64,000 nt of DNA, taken from assembly GCF_000189635.1 (NCBI RefSeq), contig NW_002476413.1:186001-250000 (forward strand). Reading direction: 5' to 3'. Within the stretch, counting starts at the first letter, position 1; every line of letters starts with the position of its first letter. The notes below the pieces were generated by a model. The model was not told the DNA's origin and made no database searches. It was given only the letters and a program-made list of their open reading frames with translations. Shown in pieces: positions 3,188 through 50,454 of the stretch. The translations under genes and the position numbers were made by a program. Source of the stretch: Tetrahymena thermophila SB210. Taxonomy: Eukaryota; Ciliophora; Oligohymenophorea; Hymenostomatida; Tetrahymenidae.

Positions 3188-6100
3188 ATGGTAAAAGATA
3201 AATTCTCATTTTTCATACTTCTTATTCTCTTAAAACGTAAATTTAAAAATAAAAATATTTGCAATTTAAGAATATAATAAATAAAATAGTATTAAGTTAC
3301 GTTATAACTAAAACTTAAGAAGATTGTTCTAGTATTTTATCCAAAAGATCATTTGTTTCTAGCAGTAAAACTTAAAAAGAGCAGTTTTTTTATTTAAAAT
3401 ATGTTTTTTAATTCAGGAAGTGAATGCCTAATAAATTAAGGTCCTCCAAGCAGTCCATCAAATAATGATGTAGAATTTTCATAGAATTTGTAGGGTCTTT
3501 AAAGTAACCCTTGCATAGGAGTAAAATAAATTGTATGCAACTCAAAAAGCGAATTAGTACTTTCAACTGACAATTGCAAATCAGATACTAATTTTGCGAT
3601 ACAAAAGTCATCGTAATAAATTTGTTAAAAATGAATGAAAGCAATAAAATATTTTGAAATTAGAATCCTACTCTTATAGAATTTTATGAATTTATTTATT
3701 TTAAAATTTAAAATTAAAAGGAGCAAGTTAATACAAAAGATCTATCTAGAAATAAACTATTTGGTAGAATCTGGTTAAAGTTTCACTGCCAATAGTATTT
3801 ATTAAGTCAATTCTTAGCCATTCTAAAATAGTGGCTAATTTGATTTATATTGTGGATCAAATTACTTTCATCTTACATAAATAAATGCTGATATAAACTC
3901 ATATAGTCTTAGCATTTCATTTAAACCTTACCCAAGTTAAAGTTATAACACTGCCGTTTATGGGTTTATTCTTGCAATATAATATGTAATAATAATCAAT
4001 TTAAAAAAAACTATCAAAATATTTAATTTAATGTTTTCAATTAATTAATTAGAGGGGAATCACATGTAAAAAAAAAATGTTAATAATAAATTGTTTAATT
4101 TTTTTCATGAACCTTTTATTTAAATCCATAAATATAAATAATAATTACCTTCCTCCTCCTTATTAATTTAAAAATAAATAATCATTCTTAAAATAAATTT
4201 ATTTAAATAGCTGTTTATGATTTTCTTAGTTTATCATATTTTAAATTAAAAAATTTTAATATATTTACAAAATAAACTACACTTCTAATGACAAATAAGT
4301 TTTTGATTATTCTAATCATATTTTTTTATATTTTAAAGTGCCCTGATTCATGTGTTTCATGTAATGACAGTGGATGTACATAATGCTCACCAGGCTATAC
4401 TTTATCTAATGGTACTTGTAGTGTATCGTGCGATATTTCTTGTTCCACTTGCTCAGGACCTGGAGTAAATTAATGCACTATATGTAACAATAATTATTAT
4501 ATATCTGATAAAAATAATTATTGCGTTTCTTCATGTGATTCGAATTAATATATTGATTCAACTTCTCCACAAAAATATTGCAGGTCTTGCGTAAATAATT
4601 GTTAGACTTGTACCAACTCAAATAGCTGTTAAAAATGCTTAACTAGCTACTATTATACTGGTTATTCATGTGCCCCTTGCGATAACACTTGCTATAGTTG
4701 CTCAGGTCCTGGAAAAAACTAATGCATTAAATGCTAATATAATTATTATATTTCTGAGAAATTAAATAATTATTGTGACCCAAATTGCGACTTAACTTCA
4801 GGCTAATTTATAGATTATTCAAACCCTGATCAAAAATATTGTAAAAAGTGTATTAGTAATTGTTAGACTTGCACCAACTCAAATAGCTGTTAAAAATGCT
4901 TAACTAGCTACTACTATACTGGTAGTTCATGTGCCCCTTGCGATAACACTTGCTATAGCTGCTCAGGTCCTGCAAAAAACTAATGCATTAAATGCTAAAA
5001 TAATTATTATATTTCTGAAAAATTAAATAATTATTGTGACCCAAATTGCGACTTAACTTCAGGCTAATTTATAGATTATTCAAACCCTGATCAAAAATAT
5101 TGTAAAAATTGTATTAGTAATTGTAAGAGTTGTAATAATAATACTAGCTGTACAACATGCATAGACAATTATTATGTTTCTGGTAATACTTGCTCTCCTT
5201 GTGACAATTCTTGTAAGTATTGTTAAGGGCCTGGAGTTAATTAATGCATTGTTTGTAGATAATCTGGATATTTTATTTAACCTGATAATAATAATACATG
5301 TGTTCAATCTTGTGATCAAAATAATGGCTATTATATTGATAAATTAGTTAATCGTTAATAGTGGTACTGCAAAAAGTGCCTCTTATCATGTAAAACTTGC
5401 TCAAATGGAAATAGTTGTAGTACATGCTTTGATTAAAACTTTTTAGATTCTTCGAACTAATGTTAGCCTTGCCACTCATCATGCCAAACTTGTAATGGTA
5501 CATAAAATACAAATTGTATAATTTGTAAATCTGGTTTACACATGTAACTCAGCACAAATTTATGTGTCCAATAATGTGATTCAAATGAATTTTTGAATGC
5601 ATTATCATAATGCTAAAAATGTGATAACTCTTGTAAAACTTGTGATGGCTCCTCGCCAAACAATTGCAAAAGTTGTTATTCAAGTTTTTACCTTTATAAT
5701 AAAAGCTGTGTTCCTGTATGTCCAAACGGCTACTCGCTAAATACTAACACTCTTGCTTGTGAACCTTGCTAAGATAAATTAAGCTGTAATAACTGCTATA
5801 ACACTTGCTAATTATGTACTTTAGCATAAATTTAAACTCAGAAATGTAACACATGTTATACCGAAACAAGAAGATTAGATCCAAATAATAACTGCACTTG
5901 CTTAAATCCAAAAGACAAAAGAAATTTATTTTACTAATGCAGTTATTAAAATATAGCCGTCTTATATGCCAGTTTAAGTGAAAGTATTCCTTAGTTAATT
6001 ATTGATTTTGGCTCACCATTAAAGTCAATAGTAAGTTCACCAAATTAACTCTGCAAGTAGGTGTTTGAAGATTAAACATTTGCTTTGCTAGGATCGGATT

Positions 6101-9100
6101 GTTCATGCTCAATTACTGATAGCTAATTTATTGTCACTTTGAGTAATTATTTATATATTTTTCCAAAATAAATTTTAATGTATTTATTTAATTTATAATA
6201 TTTAGCCAACTCTTCTAGTATTATGGAGAATAATCTTATATATTTCAAATCTGGAATCTTGCAGTTTTAGGATTATAATGTTTTTATAGACACATTTTAT
6301 AGAAATATAGTTTACTAAAATAAGACTGATAATCCTTTACTATAATTTCAAAGTAATTTTATAGAAAATACATGTAATCCTGTAATGGTTACTCTAAGTG
6401 ATTTAAAGAATGATGCAGGTAGAGGTTTTTTTAATTTAACATGGTCATTGGAGGAAATAACTGGAATTACAAGAGATGAGTAGATCTAAAGCATCAATTA
6501 AATAATGAAAACAGCAAGTTAAAATTTGAATAGAACATTAATCATAGACCCTTCAAACTTACCTCCTAATCAAAATATTACTATAAAATTTAGCTTTTTA
6601 CTAAAAGTAAACAGAACTGGCTAACAGACGTTTAAAATATTTTACAGAAAAGAAAAAATCATCAGGATAAATTATCAGCAATCGATTTATCCACCTATAT
6701 ATAGGTATCGTATTTATTATTAGTATAATTCTAAGGTTATTTTTATAAATTAGGTACAAGAGCTTGAGTTTCTACTTTTAGTTTTACATTGAAGCATGTG
6801 AGTTTGGAAATAGTACATATTTTAATGAGCCAACTGATCTTAAAATAGTTTCTCCTTAGCTAACTTAAATAGAGCAAAATATTAAAAACTATAATGAATC
6901 TAGTTTTTAATTAGACATACCTCCTTACACATTTTAATCGAATTAAACATTTAATACTAGTGTAATCCATTTTTTATTTTATTTTAATTTAAATTAATAA
7001 GAGTTTTCTCCTACTAAATTAAATTTATTTTAGGATATGAATAAATTAATCATTCCAAATTATTCTTATTTTTATTCTAAAATACTTTATTATTGTAGGC
7101 CCTTTTTTATTAACACCAAAATTTTTATTTTGGAAAATTTTATTTTCCTAAGATAAATTTTTTTAAATCAAAATTTAAAAAAAAAAACCAAATGTTTAAT
7201 ATTAAATTAAATACAAATATATAAATATATTTTAAATTCCACATCCTTTTTAAGATAGATAATATAAGTAAAAAAATTTTATTTTCGAACAATAATAAAG
7301 TTTTTAAATTTTGTACTTTTTGATTTGAGTGATTAAATTTTTTCTTAAAAAATTAAAAATTAATTATTTTAATAAAAATTTAGATAATTTTAAATCTTAC
7401 ATCTGATAACAGGATCAGTTCTATAAAAAATATATCTATTGATGTACTCATTTCGAATTTATATTTGTCTATAGTTGGAGGATCTAATTTTATTGTTAGT
7501 TATCAAAAATAATTTGATTTGGTATCAGAATTTAGAGATTATGAAGTTCAAGATCAAACTTCCCTTTTAGGTGTTACTTTTACCTGGTAGTGCAAGAGTT
7601 TATCAAGTGAAGATCGCATTTGCTATGACTACAATCATCAAATAGTTTAAATAAATCAAGGGATAAGCTCAATCTCTTTCCCTGAAAGAAACTTCCAGCC
7701 CTATAGCATCATAGTTTTAACAATAGAAGGATAAAAAGAAAAAAGGTCAGCTAATTTTACAGCCACTTGTATTTTTACAGAATTAGATATTCCTCCATTA
7801 ATTGTTTTATAACCCCCACAGCAATAAAATCAGAAAATAAATTTAAATTAAGATCTTAACTTTGTTATTCAATACGGTTCCAATATTTCTTCGGATATTT
7901 TATCATATGCTGGAGCTTTGTTGTATAAAAATAAAATAGTTGGAGCCATAAAATTTGATTACTACTAGGTAAAATTTAGAATATGGAGCTATTTTTAAAA
8001 TATAGATCCTTCCATTCCAACAGTTTAAGTACGTTTTTCAGTTTACAATCCATCTTATGTCATGCCAAGTTTAGCAACAATTACCCTTTTAATTAACATT
8101 CCTCCTAAAAATTGCATTCTTTCTATAAGTCCAAACCAAGGAGTAGCACTCTAAACAATTTTTTCTATCAAGTTCTCAAATTGTGTTGATGAAGACTCTC
8201 CTTTAACTTACTAGTTCTTTTACTATAATAACCAAGCTGATTACGAACTAGAACTAGATTCCCCTTGGAATATTTCAAGAAGATTAATAAAAGATTAAAC
8301 AACTAGCTATGTGATGAACACTACTCTACCTTAAGGAAGCTTAGTGATAATGAGCCAAGTAATGGACTCTTAACTTGGAATTTCTAATAGCACTTTAACT
8401 ATTCAAGTTAATGGACAAAATGAAACAGAAGATAATTATTATTAACTTGTGGACTAACTTATAAAATAAGCCTAATAAAATTCTCAATCATTTAATGACT
8501 AAATAGTTTCTTTGAGTATTATTGGAGAAGATTTAAGCAAAAACAAACAATTTTAGGCCTCTCAGAAAATCAATGATCTGAAAGCTTAACTCATATCGAA
8601 TTTGTAGGAAAAATCATTTTAATTACCCTAATTTTCTCTTCTATCAACTTATGCAAATAAAGTAATTGCATAACTGCAGTAAACTCTCACAGATTCAAAA
8701 GAGAATTAGAAAGACTCAATTTACAACCAACTGCAAAAGATCATATAACATACATTATTAAGTATATAATATAACAACGCAAGTTCACTTTAATAAAATA
8801 ATGATATTTATATGCAAAATCTGATTGATTCTTTTAAAATTTTAAATTCCACAGTCAATTAAGGTAGCTCAATGCTGGATTTTGAACATTATAACAATAT
8901 ATCTTTCCAGATAGGAAGTATACTTTCTAACAGCACACTCCCGAATCAAGGGTCACTCATATTAGATGGTAATCTATCTTCTTTACTGTCTGACACAATA
9001 ACTCAAAAAAATATATATAGATATGCACTACCATTTAATGACTCAGATTCTTAAAATTCTACAAATTAATTCAACATAGTTAGAAACACATATGCATTAA

Positions 9101-10626
9101 ATATTTATGAAAAAACAACTAAATTTCAAGAATATGTGAAGTAATATGAGAATATTAGCTCGAATTTTTAATATTCAAAAAACAAAGTAATAACTACTAC
9201 AATAAACAGTACAAGTTCTTAAAATTTATTGAATGATTCTAGAGTTGCTTATTAATTTAATAATGCAGTTTCTAGCAAAAAATATAACATGACTTGTTTA
9301 TAATAAAATGATGTCAAATGGTCTAAGAATGATTGCAGTATCTTAAAATAATAGTAAAATAACTTCAAGTGCTTGTGTTAATCATAATCTCCTACAACAA
9401 TTATTGAAGACATAGATGACATGTTTTTAAAAAATAAAAATCTAGATACAGTATTAGGAGAATAAGGAATATTAAACATACTGAAATTTAAAGAGTTCTA
9501 CTTATATGCATCCTTTTGGGTTCTCTCAACTTTTACTGCACTTGAAATTTTTTTGCTTATTTTAGGAAAATACTTAGATCGTAAAACAAGATAAAAAATT
9601 ATCTCATAGGTTTTTCCAGATAAGTTAATTAGTCAATAGATTAAAGATTAAGAATTTTTAGATTAAGCTGACATATAAACTTTCCCGAAAATATAATTAG
9701 TGAATGAAGACTAGCAACCTAAGGTAGAGCCATTTACTCCACCTTAAATTAATAAGCAATATCCAAGTTTAATTCTATAGAATGGTCAGTCTTAAAAATC
9801 TCCAAAACAAATATAGTCTATTTAGCCAAGTGAAAGAAATTAAATGGTGCCTTATGCAAGACGTAAAAGGACTAAGTTTTTGCATTTATAAACATAAGAA
9901 AAATTCCCAGAGAGTAGTTCAAATAACTTATCTTAAAACCGAATATAGGATAATTAACTTTAAATTTTTAAATAACGAAGTATCTTTGATTAAGATGAAA
10001 ATCCTTAACAGTCGATTTAAATAACTTCATAAAATGAAACAAAAGAAATTTAAGATTCCCATATAAAATAACAGTAATAAATTGCATTTGAAAAGGCTTC
10101 TTGCTTCAAAAAGATAGCAATTTTTCATTAATTCTTGAGTATTTTTTATCTTTATGATGAAATAATTTCAAGACCTACTCGATTCACTCTGTTTTATATA
10201 AAGAATATTCATACTTTATCAATTTCCTTACTATTTTCTTAATACAAGCATATTATTTAGTAAGTAATAATTGCTTTAATTAACAGCTTAGTTATAGGTT
10301 TAAGTACTTTTTTTATTTAATTCACATACAAAAAAGGTAAGTTTGGAAAAATAATATCTGTCATTTTTTAAATTGGACTCTGTTTGGTTTATCTTTATAT
10401 AATATTGGCAATATCTAGTGGAAAATCTGTGAGTGAATCAAATGAATTCATGATGATTTTCATCTTATCAATGTCAGCAGATTTAATATTTATGTAAGTA
10501 ATCACATCTTCTTTCATGAGTCTATTAGTCAAGAAACACTTTAAAAATATATTACAATATAGCTTTTATGGAAAATTATTTAATCTTTTTCAACTAAAAT
10601 AAGTAATTGAAATGATAGATATTTGA
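3188..10626 (+). CDS. Receptor paralogue 1: Cys-rich/REJ/GPS protein with polycystin-1-like membrane region
   Basis: Eight exons: 3188-3236, 3290-3364, 3417-3612, 3721-3985, 4339-6142, 6206-6704, 6754-6961, 7384-10626; 2112 residues, all phases consistent. Order: signal peptide (1-17); N-terminal domain of unknown family (18-195); CxxC-rich furin-like repeats (196 to about 716); REJ-like region with FTWQC near 1098 and PPKNCILSISPNQG near 1272; GPS-like motif C1670, W1678, C1683, C1695, C1697; helix 1 (about 1735-1760); Gln/Ser-rich linker; FHQFLSIF...RPTRFTLFYIK (from about 1945) and four further helices ending near 2080. REJ plus GPS plus this membrane layout is the plan of polycystin-1/PKDREJ proteins, here without PLAT and channel parts. 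Probably a surface receptor; ligand unknown. Only this copy also has an ATG (4288) just before exon 5, but exons 1-4 are conserved in all four. Introns 4 and 7 are 353 and 422 nt. Confidence 0.82.
4669..5190 (+). repeat. Two tandem 261-bp (87-codon) Cys-repeat units in paralogue 1
   Basis: Units start at the TGT of CAPCDNTCYSCSGPG at 4669 and 4930. The variant CSPCDNSCKYC follows at 5191 at the same 261-bp spacing. Each unit carries two CxxC-rich modules. Unit number differs between paralogues (2, 4, 1, 1). Confidence 0.9.
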
Positions 10627-10978
10627 TTGTATTTTAAATTTAACTCTTCATTTAAACTTGTAATCTTAATTATTTTTTGATATCAGTTTAAAATTAACTT
10701 TTATTTCTATTTAAAATTTAAAAAATAATTTATACCATAAAATATACAAATAAAAAAATCAAATTTTGTAATACTAAATGTTTAAATTTGATATTTAAAA
10801 AAATTCGAACAAACTAAGTACATAAATTAGAGCAGATGATTTATAAAGAAAGAAAGTTAGTACATATAATTTATTAAACAAATATTACAAATTATTATTT
10901 AAATTTCAAAAAAATTACTTAATTTTAAAATTATCTGTGACAAAATATAAACGAATTAATAAATTATTAGGAAAAATT
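10627..10978. other. Intergenic between convergent genes
   Basis: About 350 bp of AT-rich DNA with T- and A-runs between the stop of receptor paralogue 1 and the stop of the minus-strand propeller gene. It must hold both 3' ends. No ORF, RNA or repeat is recognised. Confidence 0.6.
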
Positions 10979-20203: not shown

Positions 20204-20737
20204 CTGCTTAAAGATAAAATCCCATTTTTCATACTTCTTCTTCTCATAAAGTGTAAACTTAGAAATAAAAATATTTTCAATTAAAGAAATATATTAAATG
20301 CAATAGTTTTAAGTTATGTTAGAACTGATCTTTAAACAGATTGCTCTTAACTTTTAGTCTCTAAGTCATTTTTTTCCAGCAGTAAAATTACATAAATTTA
20401 GATCTCATATTTAAAATAAATTTTTTTGATGCAGGAAGTGAATGCTTAATAAATTAAGGTGGTCCCAGCAATCTAACAAACAACGATGCAGAATTTGCAG
20501 GGTATTTAAAGTAACAATTGTATAGGCGCAAAATAAATTCAATGCAAATCAGATAATAAGATAGTGCTTTCAACTAACAATTGCAAATCAGATACTACTT
20601 TTGTGATAAAAAAAAGTTCGTAATAATTTTGCTAAAAATTAATTAAAACAATTAAATGAATCTCTCCTTTTTCTAAAATTTATGAAATAAGAATCCTAAT
20701 TTTTTAATATTTTTTGTATTTTATTTATTATATATAT
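20204..20737 (+). pseudogene. Orphan N-terminal module 2 of the receptor family (exons 1-3 only)
   Basis: The signal-peptide exon starts CTGCTTAAAGAT where paralogue 2 has ATGCTTAAAGAT, so the start codon is lost. Exon 2 (TTAAGTTATGTTAGAAC) and exon 3 (AGTGAATGC...) follow; exon 3 is shortened and has lost codons. Exon 4 is absent because homology stops at 20737, where a direct repeat begins. It is a truncated, inactive copy. Confidence 0.75.
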
Positions 20738-21775: not shown

Positions 21776-21792
21776 GCATTTTATTTATGCAC

Positions 21793-28800: not shown

Positions 28801-31205
28801 TTTACTATAATAACCAAGTAGATTATGAACAAGAACTAGATTCACCTTGGAATATTTCAAGAAGATTAATAAAAGATTAAACAACTAGCTATGTGATGAA
28901 TACTACTCTACCTTAAGGAAACTTAGTTATAATGAGCCAAGTGATGGATTCTTAACTAGGTGTTACTAATAGCACTTTAACTGTTCAAGTAAGTGAATAA
29001 AATGAAACAGAAGATAATTATTATTAACTAGTGGACTAACTTATAAAATAAGCTCAGTAAAATTCTTAATCATATAATGATTAAGTAGTTTCTTTGAGTA
29101 TTATTGGAGAAGATTTAAGCAAAAGTAAACAATTTTAGACATCCTAAAAAATCAATGATATGAAAGCTTAACTCATATCGAATTTGTAGGAAAAATCATT
29201 TTAATTACCCTAATTTTCTCTTCTATCAACTTATGCAAATAAAGTAATTGCATAATTGCAATAAACTCTCACAGATTCAAAAGAGAATTAGAAAAGCTCA
29301 ATTTATAACCAATTACTCAAAATTATAAAAAACACATAGTCAAGCATATAAAATAACAATTCAAGCTCACTTTAGCAAAATAATGATTATCAAATTCAAA
29401 ATCTGATTGATTCTTTTAAAATTTTAAATTCTACAGTCAATTAACGTAGCTCAATGATAGATTTTGAACATTATAATAACATATCGTTCCAGATAGGAAA
29501 TATACTTTCTAACAGCACACTTCCTAATCAAGGGTCACTCATATTAGAAGGTAATTTATCTTCTATACTGTCTGACACAATAACTCAAAAAAATATATAT
29601 AGATATGCACTACCATTTAATGACTCGGATTCTTAAAATTCTACAAACTAATTTAACATAGTTAGAAACACATATTCAATAAATATTTATGAAAACACAC
29701 CTAACTTTCAAGAATATGTCAAGTAATATGAGAATATTAGTTAGAATTTTTAGTATTCAAAAAATAAAGTAATAGCTACTACAATAAACAGTACAGGTTC
29801 TAAAAGTTTAATAAATAATTCGAGAGTGGCATTTTAATTTAATAATGCAATTTCTAGTACAAAATATAACATGACTTGTTTATAATAAAAGGATGTCAAA
29901 TGGTCTAAGAAAGATTGTAGTATCTTAAAATCAGATGATAATAACTTCTTATGCTTGTGTAAATCATAGTCTCCTACAACTATTATTGAAGATATAGATG
30001 ACATGTTTTTATAGAATAAAAACTTAGATACAGTACTGGGAGAATAAGGTATATTAAATATACTGAAATTTAAATAGTTCTACTTGTATGCATCCTTTTG
30101 GGTTCTCTCAACTTTTACTGCACTTGAAATTTTTTTGCTGATTTTAGGAAGATACTTAGATCGAAAAACAAGAAATAGAATGGTTTCATATGTTTTTCCA
30201 GAAATAGAAATTAATAAATAAAATGATTAGGAATTGTAAGAATAAGCTCACATATAATCTTTCCCGAAAATATAATTAGAAAAAGAAGACTAGAAACCTA
30301 AGGTATCACCACCTACTCCTCCTTAAACTAATTAGCGTATTCCAAATTTAATTTTATAGAAAAATGAGTCTTCAAAATCTTCTTAAGAAGTATAGTCTAC
30401 TTAATAAAGCTAAATAACTTAATAAGTGCCTTATGCTAGACGTAAAAGGTAAAAGTTTTAGATTTTTTAAGCTTAAGAAAAATTACAACTGAATAGTATA
30501 AATACCTTATCTTAAAACAGAGAAGAGGGTAATTAACTTTAAGTTTATAAATAGCCCAGTACACTTGATTCAGAAGAAAATCGTTTACGATCTATTTAAA
30601 TAACATCATAAAATATAATAAATGGAATTTAAGTTTCCCATTTAAAAGAAAAGTAATAAATGGCTTTTGAAAAGGCTTCTTTCTTCAAAAGAATGGCAAT
30701 TTTTCATTAATTTTTGGGAATATTTTTTCTTTATGATGAAAAAATTTCAAGACCTACTCGATTCACTCTGTTTTATATCAAGAATATTCATACTTTATCA
30801 ATTTCGTTGCTGTTCTCCTAATATAAACATATTATTTAGCTAGTCATAATTGCCTTAATTAACAGTATAGTTTTAAGTTTAAGTACTTTTTTCATTTAAT
30901 TCACATACAAAAGAGGCATGTTTGGAAAATTGATATCTGTCATTTTTTAAATTGGGCTATGTTTGATCTATCTCTACATAATATTGGCAATAACTAGTGG
31001 AAAATCTGTAAGTGAGTCAAATGAATTCATGATGATTTTCATCTTATCAATGTTAGCTGATTTGGTATTTACTTAGTTAATGATATCTTATTTCATAAGT
31101 ATCTTAGTCAGAAAACATTTTGAAAATAAATCAGAAAATAAATTTTTTGAAAAATTATTTCATTTTCTTCAACTAAAATAAGTTATTGAAATGATAGATG
31201 TTTGA
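22875..31205 (+). CDS. Receptor paralogue 2: Cys-rich/REJ/GPS membrane protein, longest copy
   Basis: Exons 22875-22926, 22981-23055, 23111-23306, 23437-23713, 24114-26436, 26496-26994, 27044-27251, 27966-31205; 2289 residues. It is about 180 residues longer than paralogue 1 mainly because exon 5 has four 87-codon Cys-repeat units. The exon-4/5 junction reads GFVLAIAY|CPDFCDQC. There is no ATG in the position where paralogue 1 has its internal ATG (here ATT), so translation must start in the signal-peptide exon (MLKDKVPFFILFLLIL). The GPS-like motif is TCLQQKDVKWSKKDC...CLCKSQSP. Intron 7 is 714 nt, about 290 nt longer than in its sisters; intron 4 is 400 nt; introns 5 and 6 are 59 and 49 nt. 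No in-frame TGA was found, so it appears functional. Confidence 0.82.
24441..25484 (+). repeat. Four tandem 261-bp Cys-repeat units in paralogue 2
   Basis: Unit starts at 24441, 24702, 24963 and 25224, with the terminal variant (CSPCDNSCK) at 25485. Spacing is exactly 261 bp throughout. Units are nearly identical, including silent sites, which points to recent expansion or conversion. Confidence 0.92.
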
Positions 31206-31620: not shown

Positions 31621-31664
31621 TAAAAAACTTTAAATTTTTAAACTTGTTTTTGAAAACTTTTGCA

Positions 31665-33525: not shown

Positions 33526-36500
33526 ATGGTAAAAGAAAAAATCACATTTTTCATTCTTTTTCTTCTCATAAAATGTAAACCTTAAAATTAAAATATTTTC
33601 AATTTAAGAAATATATTACATAAAAATAGTAATAAGCTATGTTAGAACTAATACTTAAACAGATTGCTCTTAGCTTTTAGCCTCTAAGTCATTTATCTCT
33701 AGCAGTAAAATTAAATAAGTTTAGATCTCCTATTTAAAATAAATTTTTTTAATGCAGGAAGTGAATGCTTAATAAATTAAGGTAGTCCTAACAGTCTAAC
33801 AAACAATCCAGAATTTACCCAGAATTTGTAGGGCCTTTAAAATAATAATTGTATAGGCGCAAAATAAATTCAATGCAACTCAAATAGTGAAATAGTACTT
33901 TCAACTGACAATTGCAAATCTGATACTACTTTTGTGATACAAAAGGGTTCGTAATAAGATTGTTAAAAATTAATTAAAACAATAAAATGAAATTTAGCTT
34001 TTAAAAATATTGAGAGATTTTCACAATATTCGTTGAAAAAATGGCCTTTTTTATCAAATACTCTTTTTTTCTAATTTTTTAGAAATAAAAATCCTACTTT
34101 TATAAAAATTTTATGATTTTATTTATTTTAAAATCAAAAGGAGCCGAATAATATAAAAGATCTTTCTATAAGTTAATTTTTTGATAGAATCTAGTAAAGT
34201 TGTAGATGCCACGAGTACTTATTCAGTCAACTCTTAATAATTCTTTATTAGTGGTTAATTTCAATAATGGTGTAGTAATACTTCTAAACTTTATTACCGT
34301 ATTACAGAAATAAGTGCAGATATAAACTAAGATTCTCTTAACATAGCATTCTAACCTTACAATAGTGCCAGCTATAGTACTGTCGTTTATGGCTTTATTC
34401 TTGCAATATAATATGTAATAATAATCTTTAAAAAAAACAATTAAAATATTTAATTTAATGTTTTCAATTAATTGATTGGCATGTAAAAAAATTAAATCAT
34501 CATTATTATTTAATTTATAAAATTTTCATTGATATTTATTTAATGATGATTTTTTTATTGAAAAACTTTATCTTTTTAAATTAATTTTAGATTTAAAAAC
34601 TTAACCAATCAAAATATAATTTTGCAATTAAAACACGAAATTAATTTATTTCATGTTTAATTAAATACCATATATTCTCTTTTATTAAGTCCTTTTAAAA
34701 AAATAAATATATTACTGCGTTAAAGCCACATTTTTAAAAAAAAAATAATAGTCTTATTTCAAGAACATTTTATCAAATTGTACTAACTTATAGTATATAT
34801 AGTCTTTTTATTATAATTTACTTAATTTTAAATTAAAATCTTTTTCATTTTTAATAGTAATTTTCATTTAAATTTTTTAAAGCAAATATATTATTTACTT
34901 TAAGAGTAAATTTTTTTTATTTAAACATATAAAAAAAATTTAATCTACTATCCTTAGATTTTATCTAAAATATTTCATAAAATAGTCATTCCCTTCCCCA
35001 GCCTTATCTATGAAATAAATTTAGATTAACAAATCCATTAAAATAAATTTATTTAAATCAATGTTTGTGATTTATGTAATAATAAATTTTTATATTTTAC
35101 ATTAAAAATTTAAATATTTTTAGAGAATAAATTATAATTTTAAAAACAAATAAGTTTTTTTGATTATTTTAATTTTATTTTATTATATTTTAAAGTGTCC
35201 TGATTTTTGTGATTCATGCAATAATAGCGGATGTACAAAATGCTCATCAGGATATCTTTTATCAAATGGTATTTGTAATGCCTGTGATGCTACTTGTTCA
35301 ACTTGCTCAGGAACTGGAAAAAATTAATGTATTACATGTAAAAATAATTATTATATATCTGATAAAAATAATTATTGTGTTTCATCCTGTGATTCGAATT
35401 AATATATTGATTCAACTTCTCCACAAAAATATTGTAGGTCTTGCATAAGTAATTGCTAGACTTGCACCAACTCAAATAGCTGTCAAACATGCTTAACTAG
35501 CTACTATTATACTGGCAATTCATGTGCCCCTTGTGATAACACTTGCTATAGCTGCTCAGGTTCTGGAAAAAATTAATGCATTAAATGCTAAAATAATTAT
35601 TATATTTCTGAGAAATTAAATAATTATTGCGACCCAAATTGTGACTTAGCTTAAGGCTAATTTATAGATTAGTCTAACCCTAACCAAAAATACTGTAAAA
35701 ATTGTATTAGTAATTGTAAGAGTTGTATTAATAATACTAGCTGTACGACATGTATAGATAATTATTATGTTTCTGGTAATACTTGCTCTCCTTGTGACAA
35801 TTCTTGTAAGTAGTGTTTAGGGCCTGGGGTTAATTAATGTACTATCTGTAGATAATCTGGATATTTTATTTAACCTGATAATAACAATACATGTGTTCAA
35901 TCTTGTGATCAAAATAATGGCTATTATATTGATAAATTAGTTAATCGTGCATAGTGGTACTGTAAAAAGTGCCTCTTATCATGCAAAACTTGCTCAAATG
36001 GAAATAGTTGTAGCACATGCTTTGATTAAAACTTTTTAGATTCTTCGAACTAATGTCAGCCTTGCCATTCATCATGCCAAACTTGTAATGGTACATAAAA
36101 TACAAATTGTATGATTTGTAAATCTGGTTTACACATGTAACTCAGCACAAGTTTATGTGTCCAATCATGTGATTCAAATGAATTTTTGAATGCATTATCA
36201 TAATGCTAAAAATGTGATAACTCTTGTAAAACTTGTGATGGTTCTTCATCAAACAATTGCAAAAGCTGCTATTCAAATTTTTACCTTTTTAATAAAAGTT
36301 GTGTCCCTGTATGTCCAAATGGTTACTCACTAAATACTAATACTCTTGCTTGCGAACCTTGCTAAGATAAGTTAAGCTGTAATAACTGTTATAAGACTTG
36401 CCAATTATGTACTTTAGGATAAATTTAATCTCAACAATGCAATACATGTTATAGCGAAACAAGAAGATTAGATTCAAATAATAAGTGCATTTGCTAAAAT

Positions 36501-39500
36501 CCTAAAGACAAAAGAGATTTATTTTACTAATGCAGTTATTAAAATATAGCTGTCTTATATGCCAGTTTAAGTGAAAGTATTCCTTAATTAATTATTGATT
36601 TTGGCTCACCATTAAAGTAGATAGTAAGTTCACCAAATTAATTATGCAAGCAGGTATTTGAAGATTAAACATTTGCTTTGATAGGATCTGATTGTACTTG
36701 TTCAATTACTGATAGCTAATTTATTGTTACTTTGAGTAATTAATTATATATTTTTCCAAAATAAATTTTGATTAATTTTTTTAATTTAAAATATTTAGCC
36801 AACTCTTCTAGTATAATGGAGAATAATCTTATAAATTTCAAATCTGGTATCTTGCAGTTTTAGGATTATAATGTTTTTATAGACACATTTTATAGAAATG
36901 TAGTTTACTAAAATAAGACTGATAATCCTATATTATAATTTCAAAATAATTTCATAGAAAACACATGTAACCCAGTAATAATCTCTCTAAATGAATTAAA
37001 GAATGATGCAGGTAGAGGTTTTTTTAATTTAACATGGTCATTGGAGGAAATAACTGGTATTACAAGAGACTATTAGATCTAAAGCCTCAATCAAATAATG
37101 AAAACAGCAAGTTCAAATTTGAATAGAACATTAATCATAGACCCCTCAAACTTACCTCCTAATCAAAATATCACTATAAAATTTAGCTATTTACTAAAAG
37201 TGAACAAAACTGGCTAACAAACTTTTAAAATATTTTACAGAAAGGAAAAAATCATCAGGATAAATTATCAGCAATCAATTTATCCACCAATCTATAGGTA
37301 TAATATTTACTTTTAATAGTATTCTTAGGTTATTTTTATAAATTAGGTACAAGAGCTTGAGTTTCTACTTTTAGTTTTACATTGAAGCATGTGAGTTTGG
37401 AATTAATACATATTTTAATGAGCCAACTGATCTTAAAATAGTTTCTCCTTAGCTAGCTTAAATAGAGCAAAATATTAAAAACTATAATTAATCTAGTTTT
37501 TAATTAGACATACCTCCTTACTCATTACCATCAAATTAAACTTTTAATATGAGCGTAATCTATTTTATATTTTCAAATAAATTATAAAAAGTTTTGTCTT
37601 ACCAAATTAGATTTATTTTAGAATTTGGATTGATAATCCCAAATTATTTTATTTTTATTGATCTTATTCTAAAATACTTTTAATACTGTAGATTCATCTT
37701 AATTAAATTCATAAAATTTTTTGGAAAATAATTTACTTCAACAAATAATTATTTTTAAAAAAATTGAAAAGGGGATAATGTAAATTTATAAGAATGAATA
37801 TTTTGCAAAATATATTTAAAATTCAAAATCTTTTTTAAGTTAAATTTAAATATTAAATTTTTATTTTCTAACAATAAAAATGATTTAAAAGTTTTAATAT
37901 TTTATTTAGATGGATAAAATTTATCTTTAATTCATATAACTCATAAAAAAATTTACTATTCTAATTAATATTTAGATGGTTTTAAATCTTACTTCGGATA
38001 ACAGCATTAGTTCTATAAAAAATATATCTATTGATGTACTCATTTCGAATTTATATTTGTCTATAGCTGGAGGATCTAATTTTATAGTTAGTTATCAAAA
38101 ATAATTTGATTTGGTATCAGAGTTTAGAGATTATGAAGTTCAAGATCAAACTTCCCTTTTAGGTGTCACTTTTACCTGGTAGTGCAAGAGTTTATCAACT
38201 GACGATCACATTTGCTATGATTACAATCATGAAAAAGTATAAATAAAGCAAGGGATAAGTTCAATCTCTTTCCCTGAAAGAAATTTCCAGCCCTATACCA
38301 TAATAGTATTAATGATAGACGGATAAAAAGAAAAAAGGTCAGCTAATTTTTCAGCCACTTGTATTTTTACAGAATTAGATATTCCTCCATTAACTGTTTT
38401 ATCTCCATCACAACAGTAAAATCAGAAAATAAATCTGAATTAAGAGCTTAATTTTATTATTCAATATGATTCAAACATTTCTTCAGATATATTATCGTAT
38501 GCTGGAGCTTTGTTGTATAAAAATAAAATAGTTGGAGCCATAAAATTTGATTACTTCTAAGTAAAATTTAGGATATGGAACTACTTTTAAAATATCGATC
38601 CTTCTGTTCCAACAGTTTAAGTGCGTTTTTCTGTTTACAATCCATCTTATGTCATGCCAAGTTTAGCAACAATTAGCCTTTTAATTAACACACCTCCTAA
38701 AAATTGCATTCTTTCAATAACTCCAAACCAAGGAGTAGCTCTCTAAACAATTTTTTCTATCAAATTCTCAGATTGTGTTGATGAAGACTCTCCATTAACT
38801 TACTAATTCTTTTACTATAATAGCCAAGCTGATTATGAATAAGAACTAGATTCGCCTTGGAATATTTCAAGAAGATAAATAAAAGATTAAGCAACTAGCT
38901 ATGTGATGAACACTACTCTACCTTAAGGAAGCTTAGTTATAATGAGTCAAGTAATGGATTCTTAACTTGGAATTACTAATAGCACTTAAATTGTTCAAGT
39001 CAGTGGGCAAAATGAAACAGAAGATAATTATTTTTAACTTGTGGACTAACTTTTAAAGTCAGCTTTGTAAAATTCTCAATCATACAATGATTAAATAGTT
39101 TCTTTGAGTATCATTGGAGAAGATTTAAGCAAGAACAAACAATTTTAGACATCCTAGAAAATCAATGATCTGAAAGCTTAACTCATATCGAATTTGTAGG
39201 AAAAATCATTTTAATTACCCTAATTTTCTCTTCTATCAACTTATGCAAATAAAGTAATTGCATAATTACAATAAACTCTCACAGATTCAAAAGAGGATTA
39301 GAAAAGCTCAATTTATAACCAACTACAGAAAATCATAAAAAACACATAATTAAGTATAACAAATAATAATTCAAGCTCACTTTAGCAAAATAATGATATT
39401 CATACGCAAAATCTGATTGATTCTTTTAAAATTTTAAATTCTACAGTCAATTAAGGTAGCTCAATGCTAGATTTTGAACATTATAATAATATATCATTCT

Positions 39501-41218
39501 AGATAGGAAATATGCTTTCTAACAGCACACTTCCTAATCAAGGGTCACTCATATTAGAAGGTAATCTATCTTCTATACTGTCTGACACAATAACTCAAAA
39601 AAATATATATAGATATGCACTACCATTTAATGACTCAGATTCTTAAAATTCGACAAATTAATTTAATATCGTTAGAAATACATATTAATAAAATATTTAT
39701 GAAAACACAACAAATTTTCAAGAATACGTGAAGCAATATTAGAATATTAGTTCGAATTTTTAGTATTCAAAGAACAAAGTAATAACTACTACAATAAACA
39801 GTACAGGCTCTAAAAGTTTAATTAATAATTCGAGAGTGGCATTTTAATTTAATAATGCAGTTTCTAGCAAAAAATATAACATGACTTGTTTGTAATAAAA
39901 TGATGTCAAATGGTCTAAGAAAGATTGCAGTATCTTGAAATCAGATGATAATAACTTCTTGTGCTTGTGTATATCATAGTCTCCTACAACTATTATTGAA
40001 GATATAGATGATATGTTTTTATAGAATAAAAACTTAGATACAGTACTGGGAGAATAAGGAATATTAAATATACTGAAATTTAAACAATTCTACTTGTATG
40101 CATCCTTTTGGGTACTCTCAACTTTTACTGCACTTGAAATTTTTTTGCTTATTTTAGGAAAATACTTAGATCGCAAAACAAGAAAAAAAATAATGTCATA
40201 AGTTTGTCCAGAGGAGTAAATTAATTAACATTCAAAAGATTAAGAATCCTAAGAATAAGCTCATATATAAGCTCTCCCAAAAATATAATTAGTAAACGAA
40301 GACTAACAACCTAAGGTATCACCACCTACTCCACCTTAAGCCAATTAACCTATACTAGGATTATATTAATAGAATGGTGAATTTTCAAAATCTCCAAAAG
40401 AAATATAATCTACATAATCTAGTTAAAGAACTTAATAAGTGCTTTATGCAAGACGTAAAAGAGCTAAATTTTAGCAATTATAAGTTTAAGAAAAATAGCC
40501 ACAGGGCAGTTTAAATAGCTTATCTTAAAACCGAATATTTGATAATTAACTTTAAATTTTTAAATAGCCAAGTACCTTAGATTAAGATGAAAATCATTTA
40601 CACTCTATCTAAATAATCTCATAAAATGAAATAAAAGAAGTTTAAGACCCCCATATAAAAGGAAAGTAATAAAATGCTTTTGAAAAAATTTCTTGCTTTA
40701 AAAGGATAGCAATGTTTCATCAATTCTTGAGTATTTTTTATCTTTATGATGAAAAAATTTCAAGACCTACTCGGTTCACTCTGTTTTATATAAAGAATAT
40801 TCATACTTTATCAATTTCCTTACTGTTCTCCTAATATAAACATATTGTTTAGCTAATAATAATTGCTTTAATAAACAGTTTAGTTTTAGGTGTTAGTACT
40901 TTATTTATTTAATTCACATATAAAAGAGGCAGGTTTGGAAAATTTATATCTGTCGTTTTTTAAATTGGACTATGTTTGATTTATCTTTACATAATATTGG
41001 CAATATCTAGTGGAAAATCTGTAGGTGAGTCAAATGAATTCATGATGATTTTTATCTTATCAATATCAGTAGATTTGATATTTACTTAGGTAATCATATC
41101 TTCTTTCATGAGTCTCTTAGTCAAGAACCATTTTAAAAATATATTATAAAATAACTTTTTTGAAAAATTATTTAATTTTTTGTAACTAAAATAAATAATT
41201 GAAATGATAGATATTTGA
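33526..41218 (+). CDS. Receptor paralogue 3: Cys-rich/REJ/GPS membrane protein
   Basis: Exons 33526-33574, 33630-33704, 33758-33950, 34141-34414, 35196-36735, 36799-37297, 37347-37554, 37976-41218; 2026 residues. It has one 87-codon Cys unit. Exons 6, 7 and 8 have exactly the lengths seen in paralogue 1 (499, 208, 3243 nt). Where paralogue 1 has its internal ATG this copy reads AAA, followed by a 2-nt insertion and an in-frame TGA. That region can only be intron here, which supports the signal-peptide exon MVKEKITFFILFLLIK as the true start. Exon 4/5 joins as GFILAIQY|CPDFCDSC. The GPS-like motif is TCLQQNDVKWSKKDC...CLCISQSP. Intron 4 is the longest of the family (781 nt) and intron 5 (63 nt) contains TGA, confirming it as an intron. 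Confidence 0.83.
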
Positions 41219-42990: not shown

Positions 42991-45900
42991 ATGGCAAAAG
43001 ATAAATTCACATTTTTCATTCTTTTTCTTCTCATAAAATGTAAACTTTAAGATAAAAATATTTCAATTTAAAAGAAACATATTATATAAAAATAGTATTA
43101 AGCTATGTTAGAACTGGTACTCTAACAGATTGCAATTAACTTTTGACCAATAAGGCATTTGATATAAGCAGTAAAACTTAATTATTTTAGATCTCATGTT
43201 TAAAATACATTTTTTTGATGCAGGAAGTGAATGCATAATAAATTAAGGTGCTCCAAGCAGTCAAACAAATAATGAAGATGAATTTAACCAGAATTTATCT
43301 GGTCTTTAAAGAAATGATTGCATAGGCGCAAAATAAATTCTATGCAGCTCTCAAACTATGACAGTACTTTCAACTAATAGTTGCAAATCAAATACTCTTT
43401 TTACGATACAACCGAATTTGTAATCAGTTTGTTAAAAATAAATTAAAACAATAAAATGAAATTTTGATTTCAAAATTATATTAAAACTTCCATAATATCA
43501 ATTGAAAAAATAAATTACCTTTTTATATAAAAAAAGTCTCATTTTTCTAAATTTTGTTTGAGAATAAATATCTATCTTACTTTATTTAGGATTATATGAT
43601 TTTATTTATTTTAAAAATAAAAGGAGTAGAGTTGTATAAAAGATTTATCTATAAGCTACTTTTGTGATAGAATCTAAATATCCTGCTGATGCCACCAGTA
43701 CTTATATAGTCAATGATTAACCATTCTCACCTAGTGGCGCCTTTTAATTATATTGTAGTCCTAATTATTTTTCCCATATGAGAGAAATAAATGCAAATAT
43801 AAATTCTAGTTCTCTTACCATTTCATTTGTACCTTATACAGGTGCTATTTATAATGCTTTTGTTAGTGGCATTCTCCTTGCAGTTTAATATGTAATAATA
43901 ATCATTTAAAAAACCACCAAATTATTTTATTTAATGTTTTGAATTAATCTAATAGAGGGAATCATACGCAAAATAGTTAACTTATTATAAATTATTTAAT
44001 TTTTAATTAAATAAATATTTATGAAAATAATCTTTAAAAATTTATTCACCATCTTAATAAATTCATCATATTCAAGAGCAACTTAAAAAACAGTGCTGAA
44101 GTATATATAGTCTTTTTATTTAATTTATCTAGTTTTAAATATAAATTTGTTTTATCTTTTAACAATATTTATTTTTTTAAACTTAATATTTAAATTAAAA
44201 ATAATTTTTTAAATTTAAACATATTATAAAAATTAAATTATTATACTAATATTCAATCTAAAATATTTCATAAAACAATTATTCCTTTCCCATCCTCATC
44301 TATTAAATCAATTAAAGAATAAATAAGCATGTTTAAAATAAATTTATTTAAATTATTGTTTATGATTTTGCTTATTATAACATTTTAAACATCATTTTTT
44401 AATTAAAAAAATATTTTTTGAGATAAAGAAGTTTTTGATTATTTTAACTTTATTTTATTATATTTTAAAGTGTCCTAATTTTTGTTTATCATGTGATAAT
44501 AGTGGATGTCTAAAATGCTCACCAGGATATAATTTGTATAATGGTATTTGTAATACCTGCGATAGTACTTGTTTAACTTGCTCAGGATCTGGAAATAATT
44601 AATGTACTACATGCAAAGATAATAATTATTATTTATCTGATAAATATAATTATTGTGTTTCATCCTGTGATTCAGATTAATATATTGATTTGACTTCTTC
44701 ATAAAAATATTGTAGGTCTTGCATGAGTAAATGTTAGACTTGCACCAACTCAAATGGCTGTTAAAAATGCTTAACTGGCTACTATTATACTGGTAATTCA
44801 TGTGCTCCTTGTGATAATACTTGTAATAGCTGCTCAGGTCCTGGAAAAGACTAATGCACTATATGCTAAAGTAATTAATATATTTCTGAAAATTTAAATA
44901 ATTACTGTGACCCAAATTGCGACTTAACTTAAGGCTAATTTATAGATTAGTCTAACCCTGATCAAAAATACTGTAAAAAGTGTGTTAGTAATTGTAAAAC
45001 TTGCAGTAATTATACTAATTGTACGACATGTATGGATTATTATTATGTTTCTGGTAATACTTGTTCTCCTTGTGACAATTCTTGTAAGTAATGTTCAGGA
45101 CCTGGAGTTAATTAATGCACTGTTTGTAGATAATCTGCATATTTTATTTAACCTGATAATAATAATATATGTGTTTAATCTTGTGATCAAAATAATGGCT
45201 ATTATGTTGATAAAAAAACTAGTCGTGTGCAATGGTACTGTAGAAAGTGTATCTAATCATGTAAAATTTGCTCAGATGGAAATAGTTGTAGTACATGCTT
45301 TGATTAAAACTTTTTAGATTCTTCGAACTTATGTCAACCTTGTGATTCAACATGCCAAACTTGTAATGGCACAAAAAATACAAATTGTATAATTTGTAGA
45401 TCTGGTTTACACATGTAACTCAGCACAAATTTATGTGTCTAAAATTGTGATTCAAATGAATTTTTGAATTCACTATCATAATGCTAAAAATGTGATAACT
45501 CTTGTAAAACTTGTGATGGCTCTTCATCAAACAATTGCAAAAGCTGCTATTCGAATTTTTACCTTTTTAATTAAAGTTGTGTCCCTCTTTGCCCAAATGG
45601 TTATTCTCTAAATACTAACACTTTTGCTTGTGAACCTTGCTAAGATAAATTAAGCTGTAATAACTGCTATAACACTTGCTAATTATGTACTCTAGGATAA
45701 ATTTAATCTCAATAATGCAATACTTGTTATATCGAAACAATGAAATTAGATTCAAATAAAAAGTGTGTTTGCCTAAATCCAAAAGACAATAGAAATTTAT
45801 TTTACTAATGCAGTTATTAAAACATAGCTGTCTTAAATGCCAGCTTAAGTGAAAGCATTCCTTAATTAATTATTGATTTTGGCTCACCAATAAAGCAGAT

Positions 45901-48900
45901 AGTAAGTACTCCAAATTAATTATGCAAGTAGGTATTTGAGGATTAAACTTTTGCTTTGCTAGGATCTGATTGTACATGTACAATTACCGATAGTTAATTT
46001 ATAGTGTCTTTGAGTAATTATATTATTCTTTAAAAAAAATTAATTTTTAATGTTTTTATTTATTTTAAAATATATAGCCAACTCTTCGAGTATTATTGAG
46101 AATAATCTTATAAATTTCAAACCTGGAATCTTGCAGTTTTAGGATTATAATGTTTTTATAGACACATTTTATAGAAATGTAGTTTACTAAAATAAGACTG
46201 ATAATCCTATCCTATAATTTCAAAATAATTTCATAGAAAACACATGTAATCCTGTAATTATCTCTCTAATTGAGTTAAAGAATGACGCAGGCAGAGGTTT
46301 TTTTAATTTAACATGGTCATTAGAGGAAATGACTGGAATTATAAGAGATGATTAGATCTAAAGCATTAATCAAATAATGAGAACAGCAAGCTTAAATTTA
46401 AATAGGATTTTAATTTTAGACCCCTCAAACCTACCTCCTAATCAAAATATTAGAATAAAATTTAGCTATTTACTAAAAGTCAACAAAGCTGGTTAACAAA
46501 TGTTTAAAATATTTTACAAAAAACAAAAGATAATTAGGATAAATTATTAGCAATCAATTTATCCACCAATCTATAGGTATATATTTAGTTTTAATAAAAT
46601 GTTAATGTTATTTTTATAAATTAGGTACAAGAGCTTGAGTTTCTACTTTTAGTTTTACATTGAAGCATGTGAATTTGGAAACAATACATATTTTAATGAG
46701 CCAACTGATTTATAAATAGTTTCTCCTTAGCTAACTTAAATAGAGCAAAATATTAAAAGCTATAATTAATCTAGTTTTTAATTGGACATACCTCCTTACT
46801 CATTACCATCAAATAAAACTTTTAATATGAGCGTAATCTATTTTATATTTTCAAATAAATTAAAAAGAGTTTTGATCTGCTAAATTAAATTTATTTTAGA
46901 ATTTGTATTCGAAATCCCAAATCATTTTTATTTTTAATTACTCTTATTCTAAAATATTTTTAATATTGTAGTTTCTTTTTTATTAACACCAAAAATTATT
47001 TTGGAAAATAATTTAAACAAACTCACTATTATTGCAAAAAAATTTGAAAAATAGATAACTTAAATTTATAAGAATGAACATTTTATAAATTATATTTTAA
47101 ATTTGATATCCTTTTTATGATTAATTTAAATGTTAAATTTTTTTCAAAAAAATAAAAATAATTTTATCTTTTAATTAGATTTCTCTTAGAATTAAAATAT
47201 TTACTATTCTTAAAAAAATTTAGCTGATTTTAAATCTTACATCTGATAACAGCATAAGCTCTACAAAAAATATATCGATTGATGTACTCATTTCGAATTT
47301 ATATTTGTCTATAGTTGGAGGATCTAATTTTATAGTTAGTTATCAAAAATAATTTGATTTGGTATCAGATTTTAGAGATTATGAAGTTCAAGATCAAACT
47401 TCCCTTTTAGGTGTCACTTTTACATGGCAGTGCAAGAGTTTATCAACTGATGATCACATTTGCTATGATTACAATCATGAAAAAGTTTAAATAAATCAAG
47501 GAATAAGTTCAATCTCTTTCCCTGAAAGAAATTTCTAGCCCTATAGCATCATAGTGTTAACGATAGACGGATAAAAAAAATAAAGGTCAGCTAATTTTTC
47601 AGCCACTTGTATTTTTACAGAATTAGATATTCCTCCATTAACTGTTTTATCTCCACCACAGCAGTAAAATCAGAAAATAAATCTGAATCAAGATCTTAAC
47701 TTTGTTATTCAATACGACTCCACCATCTCTTCAGATATTTTATCATATGCTGGAGCTTTGTTGTATAAAAATAAAATTGTTGGAGCCATAAAATTTGATT
47801 ACTATTAGGTAAAATTTAGAATATGGAACTACTTTTAAAATATAGATCCTTCTGTTCCAACTGTTTAAGTACGTTTTTCTGTTTACAACCCATCTTATGT
47901 TATGCCAAGCTTATCAACAATTAGTCTTTTAATTAATCTTCCTCCTAAAAATTGCATTCTTTCTATAAGTCCAAACCAAGGAGTAGCTCTCTAGACAATT
48001 TTTTCTATTTAATTCTCAAATTGTGTTGATGAAGATTCTCCATTAACTTACTAGTTCTTTTACTATAATAGTCAAGCTGATTTTGAACAAGAAAGAGATT
48101 CACCTTGGAATATTTCAAGAAGATAAATAAAAGATTAAACAACTAGCTATGTGATGAACACTACTCTACCTCAAGGAAGTTTAGTTATAATGAGCCAAGT
48201 AATGGATTCTTAACTTGGAATTACTAATAGCACTTAAATTATTCAAGTTAGTGGACTAAATGAAACAGAAGATAATTATTATTAACTTGTGGACTAACTT
48301 ATAAAGTAAGCTTTATAAAATTCTCAATCATACAATGACTAAATAGTTTCTTTGAGTATTATTGGAGAAGATTTAAGCAAAAACATACAATTTTAGGATT
48401 CTTAGAAAATCAATGATCTTAAAGCATAATTAATTTAGAATTTGTAGGAAAAATCATTTTAATTACCCTAATTTTCTCTTCTATCAACTTATGCAAATAA
48501 AGTAATTGCATAATTACAGTAAACACTCATGACTTCAAAAGAAAATTAGAAAAGCTCAATTTATAATCAACTACAAAGAATCATAAAAAACACATAATCA
48601 AGTATATAAAATAACAACGCAAGCTCACTTTAACAAAATAATGACATCCATATGCAAAATCTGATAGATTCTTTTAAAATTTTAAATTCCACAGTCAATT
48701 AAGGTAGCTCTATGTTAGATTTTGAACATTATAACAATATATCTTTCCAAATAGGAAATATGCTTTCTAACAGCACACTTCCGAATTAAGGGTAACTTAT
48801 ATTAGAAGGTAATCTATCTACAATACTTTCTGACACAATAACTCAAAAAAATATAGATAGATATGCACTACCATATAATGACTCAGATTCTTAAAATTAG

Positions 48901-50454
48901 ACAAATCAATTTAATATAGTTAGAAACACATATTAATAAAATATTTATGAAAACACAACAAATTTTCAAGAATATGTGAAGCAATATGAGAATATTAGTT
49001 CGAATTTTTAGTATTCAAAGAATAAAGTAATAACTACTACAATAAATAGTACAGGCTCTAAAAGCTTAATGAATTATTCCAGAGTGACATACTTATTTAA
49101 TAATGCAGTTTCTAACAAAAAATATAATATGACTTGCTTATAATAAAATGATGTAAAATGGTCTAAAAAAGATTGCAGTATCTTAAAATTAGATGATAAT
49201 AACTTCATGTGCTTGTGTAAATCATAGTCTCCTACAACTATTATTGAAGATATAGATGACATGTTTTAATAGAATAAAAACTTAGATACAGTATTAGGAG
49301 AATAAGGAGTATTAAACATACTAAAATTTAAAGAGTTCTACTTGTATGCATCCTTTTGGATTCTCTTAACTTTTACTGCGCTTGAAATTTTTTTGCTTAT
49401 TTTAGGAAAATACTTAGATCGCAAAACAAGAAAAAAAATTATGTCATAAATTTATCCAGAAGAGTAAATTAATTAACAATAAAAAGATTAAGAACACTAA
49501 GAATAAGCTCTCCCAAAAATAGAATTAGAGAACGAAGATTAATAACCTAAGGTATCACCATCTACTCCACCTTAAGAAAATTAGCGTATTCCAAGTTTAT
49601 TTTTACAAATTGAAGAGCTTTCAAAATCTCCAAAAGAAATATAGTCTTGCTAATCAAGTTAAAAAACTTAAAAAGCGCTTTTTGTTAGACGTTAAAAGGC
49701 TAAGTTTTAGCAATTATAAGTTTAAGAAAAATAGCCACAGGGTAGTTTAAATAGCTTATCTTAAAACCAAATTGTTGATAATTAACTTTAAATTTTTAAA
49801 TAGCCAAGTACATTTGATTAAGATGAAAATCATTAACACTCTATCTAAAAAATATCATAAAATGAAATAAAAGAAATTTAAGATCACCACTTAAAAGCAA
49901 AGCAATAAATCGTTTTTGAAAAAGTTTCTTTCTTCAATAGGATAGTAATTTTTCATCAATTCTTGAGTATTTTTTATCTTTATGATGAAAAAATTTCAAG
50001 ATCTACTAGGTTCACTCTGTTTTATATAAAGAATATTCATACTTTATCAATTTCCTTACTGTTCTCCTAATATAAACATATTGCTTAGCTAATCATAATT
50101 GCCTTAATTAACAGTTTAATTTTGGGCTTAAGTACTTTTTTTATTTAATTGACATACAAAAGAGGTAAGTTTGGAAAATATATATCTGTAGTTTTTTAAA
50201 TTGGACTAAGTTTGATTTATCTTTACATAATATTGGCAATATCGAGCGGAAAATCTGTAAGCGAGTCAAATGAATTCATGATGATATTCATCTTATCAAT
50301 ATCAGTAGATTTAATATTTACTTAGGTAATTATATCTTCTTTCATGAGTCTCTTAGTAATGAAACATTTTAAAAATATACAAAAAAATAATTTTTTTGAA
50401 AAACTATTTAATCTTTTTCAACTAAATTAAGTAATTGAAATGATAGATATTTGA
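42991..50454 (+). CDS. Receptor paralogue 4: Cys-rich/REJ/GPS membrane protein
   Basis: Exons 42991-43039, 43096-43170, 43224-43419, 43624-43891, 44471-46013, 46078-46576, 46625-46832, 47224-50454; 2022 residues, the shortest copy. Start MAKDKFTFFILFLLIK. It has one 87-codon Cys unit. The exon-4/5 junction is GILLAVQY|CPNFCLSC; the position of paralogue 1's internal ATG is GAG. The GPS-like motif is TCLQQNDVKWSKKDC...CLCKSQSP. The Q-rich linker between helix 1 and the distal helices is a few codons shorter than in paralogues 1 and 3. Introns: 56, 53, 204, 579, 64, 48 and 391 nt. The most diverged copy in exon 4. It ends convergently with the DUF4246 cluster. Confidence 0.82.

Follow-up and report, generated by a model that had tools for sequence, protein, structure and literature searches.

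A tandem cluster of four genes in Tetrahymena thermophila SB210 probably belongs to a ciliate-expanded receptor family that matches polycystin-1 up to the end of its fifth transmembrane helix (TM5), with a Cys-rich/REJ ectodomain, a GAIN domain that is probably uncleaved and a five-helix module (TM1-TM5), and with neither PLAT nor a fused channel. The cluster lies in the 64,000 nucleotides of contig NW_002476413.1 from position 186,001 to 250,000 (here the window; contig C134, 186001-250000, of the 101-Mb, 445-contig genome used for our searches). A cytochrome c1 fragment of this genome agrees at 159 of 160 aligned residues with PDB 7tgh, an entry from T. thermophila, as would be expected for that species or a close sister species. 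Under the standard code the window contains no open frame of 250 codons. Long frames open once TAA and TAG are read as Gln (code 6), and in this code four plus-strand genes are present in tandem, in the range given by an earlier reading of the letters alone (the sequence-only reading). We infer a receptor role for their products; what is new here is a variant of the PKD1/REJ type with an unusually clean split of receptor from channel.

The REJ-like region that had been proposed for these genes is highly significant in a hidden Markov model search: all four last exons score 164-171 bits against a Pfam cut-off of 25 (E 4e-48 to 4e-50). A GPS-like C-W-C-CxC pattern is likewise present in all four genes. 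Scanned whole, none of the four last exons gave a Pfam GPS match at E up to 10; at E up to 1 the profile matched 17 of 37 aligned family members (alignment A5, 37 of 51 references), the next family reaching 3 of 37. The case for GPS is made by this number of members and not by any one score, the lowest single E among the 37 being that of SHLD1_C (4.8e-4, three members) and not that of GPS (9.5e-4). Against the PDB, the A5 GPS profile retrieved adhesion G-protein-coupled receptor (GPCR) chains in 6 of 7 matches (best E 0.018), and of the 12 rows obtained with a longer profile (A3) five were latrophilin GAIN/GPS, with E 0.15 for the first of them. The predicted model shows a GAIN fold, and a GAIN domain with a GPS motif stands before TM1; the nearest solved GAIN folds are those of adhesion GPCRs. 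The GPS-like motif of the sequence-only reading holds in its pattern, in the number of members matched and in the modeled fold, and is weak in each member taken singly.

Both the GAIN fold and the GPS profile matches would also fit an adhesion-GPCR-like receptor minus two helices. We consider this very improbable: adhesion GPCRs share the GAIN fold with GPS but have seven helices in a different fold, whereas five membrane helices are found here, and no 7tm_2 match was obtained in the window last exons or in eight distant frames. The GPS of adhesion GPCRs is usually cleaved. The canonical cleavage tripeptide in the PKD1/REJ family is His-Leu-Thr/Ser. Across the 37 aligned GPS regions the four cysteines are invariant and the tripeptide occurs in none, the nearest being HYTS, in a single member (L058, on contig C327). 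Behind CxC the window genes read xSQSPTT and other members mostly xxQxPTT, and part of a distant group has a TPDVTS-like sequence there. The GAIN domain is thus probably uncleaved, and L058, with His-Tyr-Thr-Ser at this place, may be nearest to a cleavable ancestor.

Structure prediction for gene 1 yielded one helix, a disordered loop and four further helices, in line with the five helices anticipated from the sequence. In two models, from distant subfamilies, the C-terminal helices are predicted to fold like polycystin-1 TM1-TM5; both singled out polycystin-1 over the whole of TM1-TM5, the second with a gap from 12.1 to 5.2, a comparison to be read knowing that helical bundles can score highly by chance. 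A stop codon follows TM5 in all four window genes, and Pfam PKD_channel had no match in their last exons at E up to 10, which bears out the claim that the protein ends after helix 5 without a channel. The claimed lack of PLAT held as well: the Pfam profile matched neither the four last exons (E up to 10) nor eight distant frames, and the loop between TM1 and TM2 is of low confidence or disordered in both models. A genome-wide PLAT search returned no match; it was run without a positive control, and we therefore do not claim absence from the genome. The PKD_channel profile had six matches elsewhere in the genome, which by eye include one mucolipin-type (L009), one PKD2-like (L010) and three voltage-gated-like frames (L011, L012 and L014). 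Behind gene 1, 352 bases separate the stop from an opposite-strand long frame at 10979, and about 320 bases separate the end of gene 4 from the opposite-strand frame of a DUF4246 gene at 50773, so that behind those two genes a hidden channel would have little space. The next gene lies about 2.3 kb behind gene 2 and about 1.8 kb behind gene 3, and in these gaps channel exons were looked for in the frame list only.

In sequence, the tie to the polycystin-1 helices is weak, and several results count against an argument from the motif. TM2-TM5 profiles (A2 and A4) retrieved no polycystin from the PDB. With hhalign, the family profile scored 13.4 against polycystin-1 TM2-TM3, not above the controls (three kinds of shuffle, 60 each, reached at most 19.8, 16.2 and 18.6; reversed sequence 16.6). 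In a gapless per-segment scan of the profiles against a 667-residue stretch of polycystin-1 with 200 shuffles, three of the five segments ranked their own partner first, namely TM1 (a score that 61 of the 200 shuffles also reached), TM3 (4 of 200) and TM5 (none of 200); TM4 (71 of 200) and the HQFLSIF...RPTRF motif with TM2 (157 of 200) fell on a wrong partner. Because of these failures, the motif before helix 2, which had been put forward as a sign of homology, is on its own no evidence of it, and the case rests on the fold. The proposed likeness to polycystin-1 thus stands by predicted fold and is weak by sequence. Lacking a significant sequence match, and with chance scores being what they are for helical bundles, the five helices could be a generic bundle that arose independently under a REJ-GAIN ectodomain and converged on polycystin-1. 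We regard this as improbable, since two models from distant subfamilies single out polycystin-1 over TM1-TM5, the order REJ-GAIN-TM1-insertion-TM2-5 is that of polycystin-1, and TM1, TM3 and TM5 prefer their own partners, though shuffles too reach the TM1 score.

Ratios of nonsynonymous to synonymous substitution (dN/dS) were compared among five tandem copies (10 pairs), the window four and the fifth copy described below. REJ is the best conserved of the longer segments (0.13-0.23), next to GAIN (0.15-0.39), TM2-TM5 (0.24-0.38) and the loop (0.37-1.02); TM1 ranged from 0 to 1.11 and, at 27 codons, is too short to judge. The loop at the place of PLAT drifts, and the ectodomain core and the TM2-TM5 module are kept. 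The last exon is under purifying selection, which suggests that the genes are maintained.

The Cys-rich repeats expected upstream of REJ form a single stop-free exon with 15% Cys in all four genes. Its length is 601, 774, 513 and 514 residues in genes 1 to 4; the exon is longer in paralogue 2 than in either 3 or 4 by the length of about three 87-residue units, and the differences fit about one extra unit in gene 1 and about three in gene 2. Tandem Repeats Finder gave units of 261 bp, hence of 87 residues, which match at 87-96% for gene 1 and at 93% for gene 2. Such a change of copy number between adjacent paralogues probably reflects unequal exchange in the ectodomain. A Pfam scan of this exon, made for gene 1 among the four, matched VSP (4.9e-27) and GF_recep_IV (3.8e-7). 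Giardia VSPs carry a Cys-rich CxxC ectodomain on one C-terminal anchor helix. The VSP match, the repeat number that differs among tandem copies and the roughly 100 copies in the genome could be taken to mean antigens of a variable surface coat, resembling Giardia VSPs or ciliate immobilisation antigens, whose helices serve as an anchor only. This seems still less probable than a convergent bundle, as the ciliate proteins, unlike VSPs, continue with REJ, GAIN and five helices; an anchor needs neither a conserved five-helix bundle nor GAIN, TM2-TM5 is under purifying selection, and REJ is the best-conserved longer segment.

Beyond the window, REJ was found at 74 places in the genome, a number to be read as at least 74. 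Forty of these were fetched, and eight further places (L055-L062) were chosen among the TM2-TM5 places that had no REJ match. All 40 REJ places carry the R..RF motif ahead of TM2, and 39 the GPS pattern, the exception (L051) having Met in place of Trp; 38 frames reach the usual end after TM5, two (L036 and L042) break near TM4, and that of L018 is broken further upstream. All eight added places show GPS, TM1, loop, TM2-TM5 and then a stop (L058 across two frames). Pfam REJ found nothing in the scanned frames of these eight, of which those of L058 and L060 may not span the whole region. TM2-TM5 queries against the genome gave 107 matches (E up to 0.01) in one search and 102 (E up to 1) in another, with some genes counted in two pieces, and the family numbers about a hundred, far beyond the window. 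Two family searches with TM2-TM5 revealed no recognisable head-to-head gene pair among the matches listed. Six of the 40 places, broken or near-duplicate, were left out of alignment A3 (L017, L018, L019, L030, L036 and L042); A2 comprised 31 of 44 references, A4 (18) and A6 (23) were picked for variety, and L061, outside the A5 distance limit, had its GPS identified by eye. REJ matches of identical score (100.3 bits) were seen at two places on contig C410 and one on C408, which suggests recent duplication or duplicate assembly.

A seven-exon structure is common to the four window genes, whose features are collected in the table below. Homologous signal-peptide-like starts (M-x-K-[DE]-K...FFIL) open all four, as the shared signal peptide of the sequence-only reading implied, and exons 2-6 are alignable and conserved throughout. 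The gene finder placed inner exons well and merged adjacent genes, so gene ends were taken from the frame list and homology comparison instead. The last exon of gene 1 shares 81, 85 and 83% identity with those of genes 2, 3 and 4. A fifth copy (L033, C134:176969 onwards), whose end lies about 5.8 kb before the window begins, clusters with the window four (support 100/100). Inside this cluster gene 1 pairs with the fifth copy (98/96) and gene 3 with gene 4 (100/98), and the branch connecting gene 2 to these is weaker (87/67). Two 5' relics of further copies lie in the window; beside the second, there was no match to other exons at E up to 0.01.

Table. Coordinates of the receptor genes and their parts in the window.
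Feature	Position	Strand	Remarks
Paralogue 1	3188..10626	+	about 2,110 aa by the count of the sequence-only reading; seven exons
Exons of paralogue 1	~3188-3236, 3417-3611, 3746-3984, 4339-6142, 6206-6606, 6782-6961, ~7384-10626	+	first exon, signal peptide MVKDKFSFFILLILL; fourth exon, Cys-rich
Cys-rich exon, paralogue 1	4339..6142	+	furin/growth-factor-receptor-like; 91 Cys in 601 aa; near-identical 261-bp tandem units (Tandem Repeats Finder)
261-bp tandem units	4596-5233 and 24441-25507		87-96% match within a gene
REJ, paralogue 1	7375..8487	+	PF02010, 171 bits, E 4e-50
GAIN-like domain, paralogue 1	8428..9408	+	helical part, then strands
Degenerate GPS, paralogue 1	9295..9378	+	CLQQNDVKWSKNDCSILKQQQNNFKCLC; no HLT/S behind
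TM1, paralogue 1	9508..9612	+	model residues 389-423
Q-rich loop, paralogue 1	9622..10023	+	model residues 427-560; per-residue model confidence (pLDDT) <50 almost throughout; fast-evolving; at the place of PLAT in polycystin-1
TM2-TM5, paralogue 1	10171..10545	+	model helices 610-630, 637-663, 666-691, 696-734; start at RPTRF motif; aligned to polycystin-1 up to residue 3624
Paralogue 2	22875..31205	+	layout as paralogue 1; Cys-rich exon 24114-26436
REJ, paralogue 2	27939..29069	+	PF02010, E 6.2e-49
Degenerate GPS, paralogue 2	29877..29960	+	
Paralogue 3	33526..41218	+	layout as paralogue 1
REJ, paralogue 3	37964..39079	+	PF02010, E 8.8e-50
Degenerate GPS, paralogue 3	39887..39970	+	
Paralogue 4	42991..50454	+	layout as paralogue 1
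REJ, paralogue 4	47218..48327	+	PF02010, E 4.1e-48
Degenerate GPS, paralogue 4	49135..49218	+	
5' relic of a further copy	761..1404	+	exon 2 with in-frame stop; exon 3 frameshifted
Second 5' relic	20434..20620	+	exon 2, frameshifted

Other elements surround the cluster. Paralogues 1 and 2 flank a single minus-strand frame of about 1,820 codons (10979-16444), towards whose end there is a weak match to the Ig-like He_PIG (E 0.0047, short of the cut-off), and four DUF4246 frames in tandem on the minus strand (50773-59942; Pfam E 2e-17 to 6e-20) adjoin the receptor genes. Further on, the plus strand carries an 84-nt tRNA gene (60217-60300; Rfam 57.5 bits), for which ARAGORN read the anticodon as the four letters gtaa and assigned no amino acid. 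This gene overlaps, on the opposite strand, the end of a frame that encodes an MA3 domain (60228-61643), and a CATCTT-type low-complexity repeat array occupies 62716-62956.

No paper on a ciliate REJ receptor family was found in the open-licence literature, where the sole mention found of GAIN domains together with Tetrahymena is a list of proteomes. The 2012 GAIN-domain paper is said to mention Tetrahymena. In term searches, "REJ" and "GPS" were absent from a ciliate GPCR survey (PMC9960496), and "REJ" and "polycystin" from PMC12029339. According to PMC11697300, adhesion GPCRs and PKD1-type proteins are the only ones with GAIN domains. The human polycystin-1/PKD1 family shares with the ciliate proteins REJ, GAIN/GPS, TM1, a cytoplasmic insertion and TM2-TM5, with a TM1-TM5 fold matched in two models. 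The ciliate genes differ in having no PLAT in the loop, no channel helices and no HLT/S site, and in their N-terminal Cys-rich repeats, no PKD or lectin domain being found by Pfam in the stretches scanned. Sea urchin REJ proteins, SpREJ1-10, have REJ and GPS in most members. They reach 11 TM and vary in the presence of PLAT and of the channel, which is lacking in SpREJ7 (six TM), SpREJ2 (two), SpREJ1, 8 and 9 (one) and SpREJ10 (none); SpREJ1-4 are sperm plasma-membrane proteins (PMC1934368). Unlike the ciliate family of about 100, they comprise ten genes, and the part of that paper used here describes no member with exactly TM1-TM5 and no PLAT. In Ectocarpus, Esi0130_0068 (1427 aa) is similar in combining REJ and GPS with 6 or 7 predicted TM, and differs in being one gene as described; it is specific to male gametes, shows positive selection in and beside REJ and has a reported polycystin-channel match within its REJ part, and in the sections of the paper used here its helices are not compared with those of polycystin-1 (PMC4700764). 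The Tetrahymena mating-type proteins MTA and MTB and MRC1, a member of the mating-type recognition complex, compared by description only, are also very large membrane proteins with five TM and a Cys-rich GFR domain, but the parts of the sources used mention neither REJ nor GPS for them (PMC10901506, PMC3608545).

The anatomy of the proteins would be consistent with a ligand or partner cell binding the Cys-rich/REJ ectodomain. The GAIN domain, having no cleavage tripeptide, may then transmit binding or tension in one piece to TM1, and the five-helix module may change shape, or hold or gate a separate channel subunit in trans. This last step is modeled on polycystin-1, in which the module and the channel half are one chain. 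The variety in repeat number and the roughly 100 paralogues suggest recognition at the cell surface, for instance in mating or in the sensing of prey or neighbours. A broader scenario, which we put forward tentatively and think rather unlikely, holds that GAIN plus the five-helix module is an old free-standing receptor class, that polycystin-1 arose by insertion of PLAT and fusion of a TRPP-type channel behind TM5, that ciliates expanded the unfused, uncleavable form acting in trans with a separate channel, and that MRC1, MTA and MTB belong to this class. If so, self/non-self recognition in Tetrahymena and egg-jelly and kidney sensing would share one receptor machine.

In human polycystin-1, where module and channel are fused, it is difficult to learn what TM1-TM5 do on their own. 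A genetically tractable ciliate that apparently runs the module alone, in about 100 copies, sets the receptor part apart from the channel part and is relevant to the question whether two older proteins were fused to make polycystin-1. The family also supplies candidates for genes of surface recognition in ciliates.
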